DNA from: Elizabethkingia occulta
Lineage (GTDB): Bacteria; Bacteroidota; Bacteroidia; Flavobacteriales; Weeksellaceae
Length of the DNA: 64,000 bases
NCBI RefSeq assembly: GCF_002023715.1
Contig: NZ_MAHX01000007.1
Location: 62,001 to 126,000, forward strand
Reading direction: 5' to 3'
In this document: positions 13,279-20,905 of the stretch, piece by piece
Layout: each line of letters opens with the position of its first letter
Position numbering within the stretch: the stretch's first letter is position 1
Notes under the pieces: generated by a model
What the model saw: only the letters and a program-made list of their open reading frames with translations
Database searches by the model: none
Told to the model about the DNA's origin: nothing
Position numbers and translations under genes: made by a program

Positions 13279-13298
13279 AAAGCCCGTAAAAGGGCTTT
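13279..13298 (-). terminator. Intrinsic terminator of the Cys-rich peptide transcript
   Basis: On the minus strand AAAGCCC, six-base loop, GGGCTTT followed by TTTTG. It lies 170 bases downstream of the peptide stop, with the MITE-like element in between. Confidence 0.7.
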
Positions 13299-13316: not shown

Positions 13317-13461
13317 TTAGAGCCTATTTAAATTTTGATTAAAAAAATATTAGACTTCGACAGGCTCAGTCTGACACTCCTAAAAGTAAGATATCTTGAA
13401 TGAACAATGTCACTCTGAGCCTGTCGAAGAGTATTAACAATAAAATTTTCACAGGCTCTTA
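13317..13461. mobile_element. MITE-like element with nested inverted repeats
   Basis: About 145 bases, non-coding. The outer ends are imperfect inverted repeats: TTAGAGCCTATTTAAATTTT on the left, and AGAGCCTGTGAAAATTTT when the right end is read on the other strand. Inside is a stronger pair, CTTCGACAGGCTCAG (13355-13369) and its exact complement (13415-13429), each extended by two mismatches and a matching TGACA. The 7-base word TATTACT occurs at 13309-13315 and 13460-13466, close to both ends, and may be a target duplication, although on the left it is three bases away from the AGAGCCT end. The element ends within about 7 bases of the peptide gene stop. No transposase is encoded. Confidence 0.65.
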
Positions 13462-13467
13462 TTACTT

Positions 13468-13644
13468 CTACAGTGGACAGATTACTGCAGGGCATTTGTA
13501 TCCCGGGCAAAGAGGTTTAGGTATTTCCGGACAACACTCATAGGTGCACCAGTTACCAGCACTACCGTTAATGCTTTTCATCTGTTCTCTGGACAATGCT
13601 TTTTGGCTTTTAAGCTTTAAAGCGTTTACTTTTAATGTTTTCAT
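13468..13644 (-). CDS. Double-glycine-type leader, Cys-rich small peptide (bacteriocin-like)
   Basis: A 58-residue ORF missed by length filters. The first about 28 residues are a basic leader containing LSREQMKSINGS, which matches the leaders of flavobacterial bacteriocin-like peptides (a hydrophobic/charged helix ending in two small residues, here Gly-Ser in place of Gly-Gly). The remaining about 30 residues contain six Cys and seven Pro, including CTYECCPEIPKPLCPG and CPAVICP. This suggests export by a peptidase-containing ABC transporter with leader removal and then disulfide or other Cys modification. No transporter or modifying enzyme is in the window, so function is open. It is on its own between terminators, with the MITE directly after the stop. 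The start is ATG at 13644; there is no other in-frame start. Confidence 0.75.
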   Translation of the reverse strand: MKTLKVNALKLKSQKALSREQMKSINGSAGNWCTYECCPEIPKPLCPGYKCPAVICPL

Positions 13645-13753
13645 TTTTCAGTGATTTTGGTTAAAAAAAATATTATAAAAGTTTAGTACATGATTGTACA
13701 ATAGCAAGTTAAATATTTTTTTTCAAATGAAAATACAACTAAAATATACCCAG

Positions 13754-14389
13754 TTATAGTGCTGTGTCTGGCTTTTTTGGGCCATATATCGCCTCCGGAT
13801 TATTACGCAGGAAATAAACAAATATGCAATGGAATAATAACAATATGGCAAAAAGGAGAGAGCATATATAAAATGCACCTCCAAAACCTAATGTAATAGA
13901 TAAATCGCTTCCAAAACCAACCTTATAATCTCCCAATCCATTCATTTGAGATTGAAAAGTCCAATAAAAGACAGATAAACATATTAATGCTATTGCAGAA
14001 AGCACAATATGGTAAATATATTTTTTCCTTATACTTCGGATAGCATGCAGAATGGTCCCTAAAACCGCAGATAACAATGGAATAATAATAAATGGGTTTG
14101 GCGGAATATTGCCTTTGGAATTATCCGACTTATCCATTGGAGAATAACCGATTTCATCAGACGAGTTATCATTTCCAAAAGAGCCAAAAGGAGAATCTTT
14201 TTTTAGTGTTTCTTTCATTTGTCTGTTCATTTTTTCTTTGGAAATACCTGTCACCAAATCGGTACCTTTAACAGATACTAGTGTTGTGCTGCCACACTTC
14301 ACAAGAAAAAACGGAAAGAAGAAACATATAATAATTATACTGTAGCTGGGAATCGGTAATAGATCTGAAATGACTTTTAATGGTTTCAT
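13754..14389 (-). CDS. Four-helix membrane protein, unrecognised
   Basis: A 211-residue protein with hydrophobic segments at about 15-32, 99-117, 125-145 and 170-193. A long polar, Ser/Lys/Asp-rich loop lies between the first and second (residues about 40-98). There is no signal peptide cleavage site and no recognised motif. It stands alone, with the mutS2 terminator upstream and the Cys-rich peptide gene 109 bases downstream on the same strand. A link to the peptide (for example immunity) is possible from proximity alone and is unsupported otherwise. Confidence 0.7.
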   Translation of the reverse strand: MKPLKVISDLLPIPSYSIIIICFFFPFFLVKCGSTTLVSVKGTDLVTGISKEKMNRQMKETLKKDSPFGSFGNDNSSDEIGYSPMDKSDNSKGNIPPNPFIIIPLLSAVLGTILHAIRSIRKKYIYHIVLSAIALICLSVFYWTFQSQMNGLGDYKVGFGSDLSITLGFGGAFYICSLLFAILLLFHCIFVYFLRNNPEAIYGPKKPDTAL

Positions 14390-16714: not shown

Positions 16715-18808
16715 ATGAGAAAATTATTTTTTTTCATAGCCTGTGTTGTATGTATCAGCATAAGTAAGGCCAATGAAATAGATCTTATTAAACACCGGAT
16801 TGCTGAATGGCACTGGGAAAAAGGATTGGATAAAGCTGCAACAGTACGAAATGCACAAAAATGGCAGCAAACACTACAAGATAATCAACAATGGAAAGAT
16901 GTAGATTATGTAGATCCATCTCCAAGTGTGTGGAAGGGCATAGACCATCTGAAGCGCATTCATGAAATGACGGTTGCTTATACTGCACCGTGGAGCAGTC
17001 TGAAGAATAATCCGGAAGTTTTCAAAGCCATTGAAAATGCTCTTGTCTACTGGAACAGGAGTAAGCCTAAAAATAAAAATTGGTGGTGGAACGAAATAGA
17101 AGCACCCAGGGTATTGGGCGTTATCCTTATTATGCTTAGTGAGAAGGATAACCAAAATAGGCTTTCCAGTGAGCTGTTTGCAAATCTGGTAAAGCAAATG
17201 GAATATAAACGCTATAAAGGTGATACAGGAGTAAATATGGCGGATTATGATACGCATATTTTCTACAGTGGATTAATCAATAATGATGAATCTCAAATCC
17301 AAAGCGGACTGAATAATATATTCTCTATTAGTAAACCAACGGTAAAGGAAGGAATTCAGTTTGATAATTCCTATGCACAGCACGATATCATGCTGCATAT
17401 CTTTGGTTATGGAACCGAATATCTGAAAGTAGAAACCTATATCGGCGCCATGGTAGCCGATACAAAGTTTGCCATGAAAGGTGAGCACTTACGAGTATTC
17501 ACTGATTTTATTACTAAAACTTTAATTCCACAGATTCGTGGTCGTTATACCAATTCAACATCCTTTGGCAGACAGATCTCACGGGAAAGCTTTACTGATC
17601 TGGAGTGGCTGGTTCCTTATCTGGAGAGTCTTATCCTGATGGATAAAGCCAATACTCAGATTTATAAAGACACTATATTACGTCTTGAAGGTAAGAAGAA
17701 ACCGAATTATCATATTGCAGAATTTCAGAAACATTACTGGAATACCGATTTTTCGTTTTATCAGGATAAAAACTATCAGTTCTCAGTTCGGATGTCTTCT
17801 AAATTTACAGAGCAGGCAGAGACCAATCTAAATGGAGAAAACAAACTTGGAGGTTACCGTTCTATAGGCTCTTATTCAATATTACAGGACGGGACAGAAT
17901 ATTTCAACATATACCCAGTATGGGACTGGAAAAAAATTCCGGGAACAACCACTTTGGATCAATTACCGATTCCGGATACCTATTGCCTTACTCCCGGAGT
18001 TTCTGGTTTTGCAGGTGGGGTAAGTAACGGTAAGATAGGTGCATCTGCATTTATGCAAAATCAGTTTGGTGTGAGAGCTGAAAAATCATGGTTTATGTTT
18101 GAAGGTGCAGTTATTTGTCTGGGCAATAATATTTCAGCTGAAAGAGAAGGGGAAGTCTTCACAACTGTGGAGCAAAGTTTTTTTAAAGATCGACTGGCTT
18201 ATCAGAATAATGAAGAAACTAAAAAAGTTGCAGCCGGACAGTTGATAAATAATGTTGGGGAGCAGGTACTTATTCATAATAATACAGCTTATCTTTTTCC
18301 ACAAAAGACAAATCTGAATGTCAGTACACAGGTTCAGAATGGCCGCTGGAAAGATATTAACGATGTAGGAAGTAATGAAGAACATAAAAATGCAGTATTT
18401 AAGGTGTGGATCAATCATGGAGAGAAAGCTGATAAAGCAGCTTACCAATACCTTATTATGCCCGGGATAAACAAACCTGCAAAAGCAAGAAAACTGGCAG
18501 ATAATTTTGTGATACTTAATCAGACAAATGTACAGGCTGTGTATAGTAAATCTGCTAATAAGCTAATGTTGGTTTTCTTCAGACCTTCGGAAACGGAGAT
18601 CGAAGGAATAAAGATAAAAGCAGATCAGGCATGTGTTATACTAATCGAAAATCCCGGATCCGAAAATCCGGAGTTATATGTAGCAGATCCTTCCCGGAAA
18701 GCAAAAGAAGTAAATATAGAATTAGGGACAGAAAAAATTAATATTCAGCTTCCTGTTACTTTAGATTATGCAGCTTCATCCGTTCACTATAAAAAAACTA
18801 ATCCATAA
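16715..18808 (+). CDS. Polysaccharide lyase family 8, chondroitin AC lyase-type (copy 1)
   Basis: A secreted 697-residue lyase. A signal peptide ends near SKAN (residue 20). The N-terminal alpha/alpha toroid carries the PL8 active site: WWWNEIEAPR, Asn174 (TGVN), His223 in NSYAQH, Tyr232 in GYG, and Arg286 in FGRQ. These lie within two residues of the catalytic set of Pedobacter heparinus chondroitin AC lyase (Asn175, His225, Tyr234, Arg288), and the overall length is the same, so chondroitin sulfate or hyaluronan is the likely substrate. C-terminal beta-sandwich domains follow. The next gene, 12 bases on, is a paralogue. No SusC/SusD genes are adjacent. Substrate is inferred, not read. Confidence 0.88.
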   Translation: MRKLFFFIACVVCISISKANEIDLIKHRIAEWHWEKGLDKAATVRNAQKWQQTLQDNQQWKDVDYVDPSPSVWKGIDHLKRIHEMTVAYTAPWSSLKNNPEVFKAIENALVYWNRSKPKNKNWWWNEIEAPRVLGVILIMLSEKDNQNRLSSELFANLVKQMEYKRYKGDTGVNMADYDTHIFYSGLINNDESQIQSGLNNIFSISKPTVKEGIQFDNSYAQHDIMLHIFGYGTEYLKVETYIGAMVADTKFAMKGEHLRVFTDFITKTLIPQIRGRYTNSTSFGRQISRESFTDLEWLVPYLESLILMDKANTQIYKDTILRLEGKKKPNYHIAEFQKHYWNTDFSFYQDKNYQFSVRMSSKFTEQAETNLNGENKLGGYRSIGSYSILQDGTEYFNIYPVWDWKKIPGTTTLDQLPIPDTYCLTPGVSGFAGGVSNGKIGASAFMQNQFGVRAEKSWFMFEGAVICLGNNISAEREGEVFTTVEQSFFKDRLAYQNNEETKKVAAGQLINNVGEQVLIHNNTAYLFPQKTNLNVSTQVQNGRWKDINDVGSNEEHKNAVFKVWINHGEKADKAAYQYLIMPGINKPAKARKLADNFVILNQTNVQAVYSKSANKLMLVFFRPSETEIEGIKIKADQACVILIENPGSENPELYVADPSRKAKEVNIELGTEKINIQLPVTLDYAASSVHYKKTNP

Positions 18809-18820
18809 TTATAAATCAAC

Positions 18821-20905
18821 ATGAAAAAACTCTTACTAATACTATGCTGCTTTGTTTTTGTGGGATTTTGTAAAGCTGACGAGATAGAGGTAATAAAACA
18901 AAGAATTGCGGAATGGAACTGGTCTAATGATATCAACCGAACCGAGATAATCCGGGATGCACAGAAATGGACGCAGACATTACAGGCGGATCAACAATGG
19001 CAGGATGTAGACTATAAAAATCCTACACGTGCTATCTGGACAGCATTTCAGCACCTGAAAAGAGTAAAGGAAATGACCATTGCATATACAGCTCCCTGGA
19101 GTTCATTGAGAAATGATGAGAAAACTTTTGAAGCTATTCAAAATGGATTGTTATTCTGGAATAAAGCCAAAATGAAAAATATTAACTGGTGGTGGAATGA
19201 GATAGAAGCTCCAAGAACCATTGGTGTAATATTGATTATGCTGGAACGAAATAATGGAAAACAATTGCCTGGTGAACTTTTCAGTAGTTTGGTAAAACAG
19301 ATGGATTATAAACGAACGAACGGTGTCACTGGTGTTAACCTTGCCGATTTTGATACCCATATTTTTTATAGTGGTTTGTTGAATCAGAATGAAGAAGAGA
19401 TTCGGAAAGGCTTGGAAAATATTTTTTCTATCAATAAAGCAACAATAAAAGAAGGAGTACAGTTTGATAACTCGTATGCTCAACACGAAATTATGCTGCA
19501 TATTTTTGGTTACGGAACAGAATACCTGAAAGTGGAAACTTACATCGGTGCTATGGTGGCTGATACCAAATTTGCGATGAAAGGCGAACAACTGAGAACT
19601 TTCACCAACTTTATTGCGAGAACATTGATTCCGCAAATCAGAGGGCGTTATACGAATTGGACATCATTCGGACGACAGATTGCCCGCGAAGATTTTACAG
19701 ATATGAAATGGCTGGCTCCTTATTTTGAAAAGCTAATCTTAATGGATAAGATGAATACAAGTATTTATCAGGATGCAATTGAGAGAATTAATCAAAAGAA
19801 AAAACCAAATTTCCATATCGCAGAACTTCAAAAGCACTATTGGAATACCGATTTTACCTTTTATCAGAATCCTGTTTATCAGTTTTCTGTAAGAATGTCG
19901 TCTAAATATACACAGCAAGCGGAAACCGATCTGAATGGTGAAAACAAAAAAGGTGGAAACCGCTCTATTGGTTCTTATGCATTATTGCAGGATGGTACAG
20001 AGTACTACAATATTTATCCGGTATGGGACTGGAGAAAAATCCCGGGAACGACTACGCTGGAAAATTATCCTTTACCGGATACTAAATATTTAACTCCGGG
20101 AAAATCTGTATTTGCAGGTGGGGTAAGTGATGGTAAAACCGGAGTGTCAGCATTTTTGCAAGATCAGTTTGAAGTAAAAGCCCAAAAATCGTGGTTTATG
20201 TTTGGAAAAGAAATTGTTTGTGTCGGTAATCAGATTTTCACGGATAAAGATGATGAGGTACTAACAACAGTAGAACAGAATTTCTTTAAAGATAAAGTTA
20301 CTTATCGGAACTGTGTTGATAAATATGAAGTAAAAGAAGGACAGTTGGTAAATAGCAATGATCAGCAGATCCTTTTACATCGGAATACAGCTTACATATT
20401 TCCGGAGAAAACTAATCTGACTATTTCTTCCCAGATACAGAAAGGAACATGGAAAGAACTGACAGAACTGGGAAGTACGGAAGAAAAGCAATCAGCCGTA
20501 TTCAAATTATGGATTAATCATGGCAAAAAAGTGAATAATGGCAGTTATCAGTATTTTATTGTACCTGGCATCCGTAATGTGAACAGAGCGAAGAAAATTA
20601 CTGCTGATTTTACCATATGGAATCAGAAAGATGTACATGCAGTGTATCAGAAATCTTCTAAAAAGCTAATGTTGGTCTTCTTCAGACCGGGAGAGATCGA
20701 ACTGATGGGACAGATGATTAAGGCGGACCGTGCCTGTACATTACTAATCGAAAATTTGGAAGCACAAAATCCTGAAGTTTTCGTTTCCGACCCTTCAAGA
20801 AAAGAAAAAGAAGTAAATTTGGGGATCGGAAAAGAGAATATTCATATTAATCTGCCTACCGACAGAGCTTTTGCGGGCTCTTCGGTACACTATAAAAATA
20901 AATAA
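18821..20905 (+). CDS. Polysaccharide lyase family 8, chondroitin AC lyase-type (copy 2)
   Basis: A second PL8 lyase of 694 residues, colinear with copy 1 along its full length and with the same catalytic residues (Asn173, His222, Tyr231, Arg285). The signal peptide ends near CKAD. The pair arose by tandem duplication; divergence is spread across the protein rather than confined to loops, so the duplication is not recent. It lies 12 bases after copy 1 and 5 bases before ung, so all three are probably one transcript. One copy may prefer differently sulfated chondroitin or hyaluronan; the sequence does not tell which. Confidence 0.88.
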   Translation: MKKLLLILCCFVFVGFCKADEIEVIKQRIAEWNWSNDINRTEIIRDAQKWTQTLQADQQWQDVDYKNPTRAIWTAFQHLKRVKEMTIAYTAPWSSLRNDEKTFEAIQNGLLFWNKAKMKNINWWWNEIEAPRTIGVILIMLERNNGKQLPGELFSSLVKQMDYKRTNGVTGVNLADFDTHIFYSGLLNQNEEEIRKGLENIFSINKATIKEGVQFDNSYAQHEIMLHIFGYGTEYLKVETYIGAMVADTKFAMKGEQLRTFTNFIARTLIPQIRGRYTNWTSFGRQIAREDFTDMKWLAPYFEKLILMDKMNTSIYQDAIERINQKKKPNFHIAELQKHYWNTDFTFYQNPVYQFSVRMSSKYTQQAETDLNGENKKGGNRSIGSYALLQDGTEYYNIYPVWDWRKIPGTTTLENYPLPDTKYLTPGKSVFAGGVSDGKTGVSAFLQDQFEVKAQKSWFMFGKEIVCVGNQIFTDKDDEVLTTVEQNFFKDKVTYRNCVDKYEVKEGQLVNSNDQQILLHRNTAYIFPEKTNLTISSQIQKGTWKELTELGSTEEKQSAVFKLWINHGKKVNNGSYQYFIVPGIRNVNRAKKITADFTIWNQKDVHAVYQKSSKKLMLVFFRPGEIELMGQMIKADRACTLLIENLEAQNPEVFVSDPSRKEKEVNLGIGKENIHINLPTDRAFAGSSVHYKNK

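Follow-up and report, generated by a model that had tools for sequence, protein, structure and literature searches.

A conserved six-cysteine leader peptide of Elizabethkingia occulta and a putative distant transporter–oxidase cassette for its export

Introduction

Within a 64,000-nucleotide stretch of the Elizabethkingia occulta genome (contig NZ_MAHX01000007.1, positions 62,001 to 126,000; the window), a short open reading frame encodes a cysteine-rich peptide with an export-type leader and no transporter beside it. How might such a peptide be matured and leave the cell, and is it a bacteriocin, as the name of its leader family would have it? An earlier note on this DNA had located the frame at exactly 13468-13644, with 58 residues, as we also find; it had counted six cysteines and seven prolines, of which the cysteine count stands, while the prolines number six. 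Here we describe the gene, its family and genomic settings, and a cassette elsewhere in the genome that is likely to serve it.

Results

Gene and precursor

The frame lies on the minus strand, begins with ATG and translates as MKTLKVNALKLKSQKALSREQMKSINGSAGNWCTYECCPEIPKPLCPGYKCPAVICPL. The features of the locus are as follows.

13468-13644, minus strand: gene for the precursor peptide (58 codons and a stop); an open reading frame under purifying selection, its six cysteines invariant in 52 aligned family members
13561-13644, minus strand: leader, residues 1-28, ending in the putative cleavage motif Gly27-Ser28; matches NF047798 at residues 17-27, with R19 and G27 invariant
13471-13560, minus strand: predicted core, residues 29-58, AGNWCTYECCPEIPKPLCPGYKCPAVICPL, covered by the 52-member alignment and orthologue comparison
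13645-13700, minus strand: 5' region strongly conserved in a four-way orthologue alignment, with a ATTGTACAAT palindrome; probable promoter/UTR, of putative regulatory role
13279-13298, minus strand: hairpin AAAGCCC/GGGCTTT, then a minus-strand T-run; likely terminator, from its sequence
13320-13458, no strand: 139-bp MITE-like repeat between stop codon and terminator, with flanking TTA duplications and both empty and filled sites

The leader LSREQMKSINGS and the CxxxCC, CPG and CPxxxCP motifs are all present as previously described. L17, M22 and I25 occupy positions -12, -7 and -4 and G27 position -2, the arrangement of a C39-type double-glycine leader, the predicted cleavage motif being GS rather than GG. 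The cysteines (residues 33, 37, 38, 46, 51 and 56) are spaced C-x3-CC-x7-C-x4-C-x4-C, and the predicted core has a neutral monoisotopic mass of 3267.48 in the reduced form and 3261.43 with three disulfides. AlphaFold2 models the peptide poorly (pLDDT 64), so that disulfide pairing cannot be proposed, and no relatives of solved structure were found.

The gene looks monocistronic, being bounded by the hairpin and T-run on its 3' side and by the conserved region on its 5' side; the hairpin is retained, with small changes, in all four orthologues of the four-way alignment. The MITE-like repeat, whose ends form GAGCC/GGCTC inverted repeats and which has CTTCGACAGGCTCAG arms inside, is outside the peptide system: its site is empty at loci L006 and L008 and filled at L007, and the genome holds some two dozen other copies.

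Three other Elizabethkingia genomes carry orthologues with 96-98% identity, and most substitutions relative to the window gene affect the third base of a codon; dN/dS is about 0.05-0.11 in these comparisons. At L006 there are eight synonymous and two nonsynonymous codons, corresponding to a dN of 0.014 and a dS of 0.28. Judged from this substitution pattern, 13468-13644 is a real gene. The flanking genes are the same at L049, the single orthologue locus whose surroundings were read, and the gene is missing from G001 and G005, two small, fragmented Elizabethkingia genomes.

The six-cysteine family

The peptide belongs to a family defined by six invariant cysteines in the order C-x3-CC-C-C-C behind a double-glycine-type leader, all of which it displays. 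Matches occur in 161 of 296 Weeksellaceae genomes at E<=0.1, a threshold at which the weakest may be leader-only, and in 121 of the 296 at E<=1e-6; there are up to 14 per genome, and the bulk fall in one other Weeksellaceae genus (g21). In the alignment of 52 members, three of them from Elizabethkingia, all six cysteines, R19, G27, P44, P47 and V54 are invariant, and the consensus core reads NCSxxCCPxDGRPRCPGLICPAVVCPQ. Relatives with up to 67% identity to the window peptide retain every cysteine. The earlier note had made its reading depend on conservation of leader and cysteine pattern in relatives, and in silico both are conserved. At g21 loci, purifying selection acts more strongly on the core than on the leader, with median dN/dS values of 0.11 and 0.29, respectively. 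The window peptide is of the CTYxCC...LCPGY subtype, found in several g21 genomes in tandem with a CSNxCC-like subtype.

No Pfam model matches the peptide, and NCBIfam offers for it only two models, both of which it scores below cut-off: the leader model NF047798 (leader_Chryseo; cut-off 23.5 bits, with scores of 20.0 and, in the genome search, 21.1) and the weakly similar NF047792 (CCPGW; 18.3 bits against 80). The former is matched by 48 of the 52 members at E<=0.01, some relatives passing its cut-off (e.g., 26.7 bits), which bears out the suggested kinship with flavobacterial bacteriocin-like leaders; the latter is matched weakly by 31 of the 52. No curated model was found to cover the family core, and our literature search returned nothing directly on the six-cysteine core or on a C39-VKOR fusion in peptide export. 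The family is large, strongly conserved and apparently undescribed, and in the case of the window peptide "bacteriocin" is only a label, any antimicrobial action being putative.

Genomic settings

Members of the family are found in two settings. Among the genomes fetched, 41 have copies at one conserved site between nitrilase-like and UbiB-like kinase genes, without a transporter. In the other, seen in a genus neighbouring Elizabethkingia, a member lies between a VKOR-thioredoxin (VKOR-Trx) gene and the genes for a C39-peptidase ABC transporter (PCAT) and HlyD, all on one strand (loci L145-L147, L151, L152, L154, L157, L160 and L161); these loci were chosen largely because the proximity of member and cassette had already been seen, and their number is not a frequency. 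No transporter or oxidase was found within about 10 kb of the 40 best orphan relatives. None adjoins the window gene either, and the neighbouring open reading frames confirm the absence of an adjacent transporter that had been reported for it.

The neighbouring 211-residue four-helix membrane protein (13754-14389), for which a link to the peptide had been suggested, has no homologue in any of the 60 loci around relatives, and we have rejected this link; the protein itself matches no Pfam or NCBIfam model over cut-off. Further along the window, at 16715-20905, two adjacent and similar secreted proteins of ~695 residues look by eye like tandem polysaccharide lyases.

A transporter-oxidase cassette in the same genome

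Our genome-wide statements derive from searches of the genome contigs. These revealed three C39 transporters, in keeping with the earlier expectation that export would use a distant peptidase-containing ABC transporter, and one of the three sits in a cassette like those found beside family members in relatives:

L051:6564-12918 (contig C13, about 566.6-572.7 kb): genes for PCAT, HlyD and VKOR-Trx, with several leader peptides of four or six cysteines around and between them

The C13 PCAT (746 aa, C39 motif DCGPTC) is 88-91% identical to the PCATs of relatives, and the same cassette is present in all three other Elizabethkingia genomes that hold the peptide. The remaining two transporters, in other RiPP-type clusters, could provide an alternative exporter. 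One, on contig C16 (L058:755-7298), belongs to a class I lanthipeptide-type cluster with a LanC-like protein and a LanB dehydratase; the other, at the start of contig C4 (L059:58-3206), adjoins a radical SAM/SPASM gene in a possible rSAM RiPP cluster.

The VKOR-Trx protein is the sole VKOR above cut-off in the genome, in which no separate DsbB was found. It has cysteines at 178 and 192, CKVC at 259-262 and a CGFC thioredoxin site at 371-374, while its first ~115 residues are cysteine-free in 21 homologues. A model of the N-terminal 125 residues (pLDDT 85) matches the C39 domains of PCAT1 and ComA and the C39-like domain of HlyB listed as 3zua (best match E 8e-5, TM 0.66), and this region is therefore predicted to adopt a C39-peptidase fold devoid of cysteine. 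In HlyB-type transporters, C39-like domains lacking the catalytic cysteine bind the substrate rather than cut it, and on this basis the VKOR-Trx protein may act as a dock for leaders.

This VKOR protein is encoded in all 121 genomes with a strong core match, vs 31 of the 175 others. Restricted to g21, the corresponding counts are about 125/0 vs 13/8 (p=5e-8); they were hand-read from tables, and the 8 is a minimum. The co-occurrence stems partly from shared ancestry.

Even numbers of cysteines

The leader peptides of the E. occulta genome were collected by the leader model alone, so that cysteine played no part in their choice, and all 29 examined have an even cysteine count (13 with four, 16 with six). 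At the fetched loci, where leader peptides were identified by HMM, 205 unique cores gave 197 even and 7 odd counts (72 vs 5 by distinct cysteine spacing), whereas leaderless small open reading frames with at least three cysteines gave 202 even and 439 odd. In these counts, kinship among the peptides limits their independence, and most control frames are not genes. The bias fits cysteines being used in pairs.

The 29 peptides are scattered genome-wide (L013-L042), with very different cores. The main exception to the even rule is a five-cysteine family (FCMYxC...CATCSDDFKCPD), found as follows.

L145:3401-3568, L157:12634-12798, L158:8578-8742 and L161:11653-11820: five-cysteine leader-peptide family

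Discussion

We consider it likely that the window peptide is an orphan precursor, processed and exported in trans by the C13 cassette to give a secreted mini-peptide with three disulfides. With no transporter or oxidase beside the gene or its 40 best orphan relatives, export in trans rests on analogy with the members that sit within such cassettes. We infer a course in which the double-glycine-type leader would dock on the C13 PCAT at its C39 peptidase domain and be cut after Gly27-Ser28, the 30-residue core then being moved out by the PCAT with its HlyD partner. The membrane oxidase of the same cassette, which combines the cysteine-free C39-like domain with VKOR and the CGFC thioredoxin domain, would make the disulfides, the C39-like domain plausibly holding leader peptides near the oxidase, and the six invariant cysteines would end up in three disulfides.

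As for what the exported peptide would do, we lean towards a conserved role, as a signal within the species or at the envelope, rather than a classical bacteriocin, since the core is conserved and the locus is fixed in relatives. A narrow-spectrum bacteriocin that uses the same export and kills close relatives, with an immunity gene nearby or unlinked, seems to us rather unlikely; this is a reading about activity, and it partly coincides with the export mechanism just described. The leader family is called "bacteriocin-like" by NCBI, and the bacteroidetocins, which are likewise disulfide peptides, kill relatives without an immunity gene (PMC6671954), a precedent because of which killing has to be kept in consideration. 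Nevertheless, the core is conserved more than the leader, and the 41 genomes with copies at the fixed nitrilase-like/UbiB-like site suggest vertical inheritance, unlike typical, variable bacteriocin loci. Nor was an immunity candidate found, the 211-residue membrane neighbour not being encountered near relatives.

It is improbable that the peptide is instead a RiPP precursor whose cysteines a radical SAM, LanB/LanC or other enzyme would turn into thioethers or heterocycles. The rSAM-modified RiPP leader model TIGR04149 does score 15.5 bits on it, and the genome contains the LanB/LanC and rSAM/SPASM clusters with their own PCATs; this score, however, lies under the cut-off of 25, for which the rSAM reading was rejected, and the family travels with VKOR-Trx, no modification enzyme being seen to travel with it. 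No radical SAM maturase was recognised by eye among the neighbouring open reading frames, two of which were scanned against families. The lanthipeptide reading was also rejected: with one threonine and no serine in the core, lanthionines cannot use six cysteines, in agreement with the earlier view that the core is unlike lanthipeptides. Even less credible is a cytosolic metal- or thiol-binding peptide that is never exported, as the CPxxxCP and CC motifs, which could bind metal, and the lack of an adjacent transporter might suggest, given the conserved C39-type leader with its invariant G27 and the family members encoded within C39 transporter cassettes. A spurious frame or a decayed gene, which the short length and missing Pfam match would allow, can practically be dismissed, because the orthologue differences lie almost all at third codon positions, with the low dN/dS given above, and the cysteines are invariant in the family; the frame is not there by chance.

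Beyond export of the window peptide in trans by the C13 cassette, we tentatively propose, as a possibility that we hold with less than even confidence, a new secretion-oxidation system of Weeksellaceae, in which the peptidase-dead C39-like/VKOR/Trx oxidase and one PCAT/HlyD pair would export and disulfide-lock dozens of scattered orphans, the six-cysteine family serving across the genus as a signal or at the envelope rather than as a bacteriocin. If so, Elizabethkingia and its relatives would use a common transporter-oxidase to secrete a set of about 30 disulfide-locked peptides, and their only recognised VKOR would be dedicated to peptide export. Many "bacteriocin-like protein" annotations would become a testable system, a leader-docked disulfide oxidase might be a tool for stapled peptides, and one would have to ask why a "bacteriocin" core is conserved genus-wide.

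In comparison with named families, the leader type of NF047798 ("bacteriocin-like protein"), LSRExxKxIxGG/GS, is common to the family described here, but that model spans 18 leader positions and is silent on the core, and the window peptide scores below its cut-off. The putative bacteriocins of NF047792 have a similar leader and a core that likewise contains CCP; our family lacks their "CCPGW" motif and has a distinct core, CCPxDGRPxCPxLxCPAVVCP. Class IIa bacteriocins such as pediocin combine C39 cleavage with disulfides, but they have Gram-positive hosts and a YGNGVxC motif absent from the window peptide, and we know of no class IIa operon with a C39-like-VKOR-Trx fusion. The bacteroidetocins of Bacteroides (proposed class IIf, PMC6671954) are disulfide peptides with a double-glycine leader, a thiol oxidoreductase and a C39 transporter, and no immunity gene. 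They share with the present system the phylum Bacteroidota, the leader type, the disulfides (predicted for our peptide) and the thiol-oxidoreductase/C39-ABC cassette, and differ in having four cysteines, a leader of 15-16 residues and a 5-TM gene in the cassette, whereas the window gene is a six-cysteine orphan. No bacteroidetocin-type cassette of its own surrounds the window gene; its relatives sit by VKOR-Trx and PCAT. The bacteroidetocins are thus the closest tested precedent that we found, one that appears to work alike, and membership of the window peptide in their class is putative.
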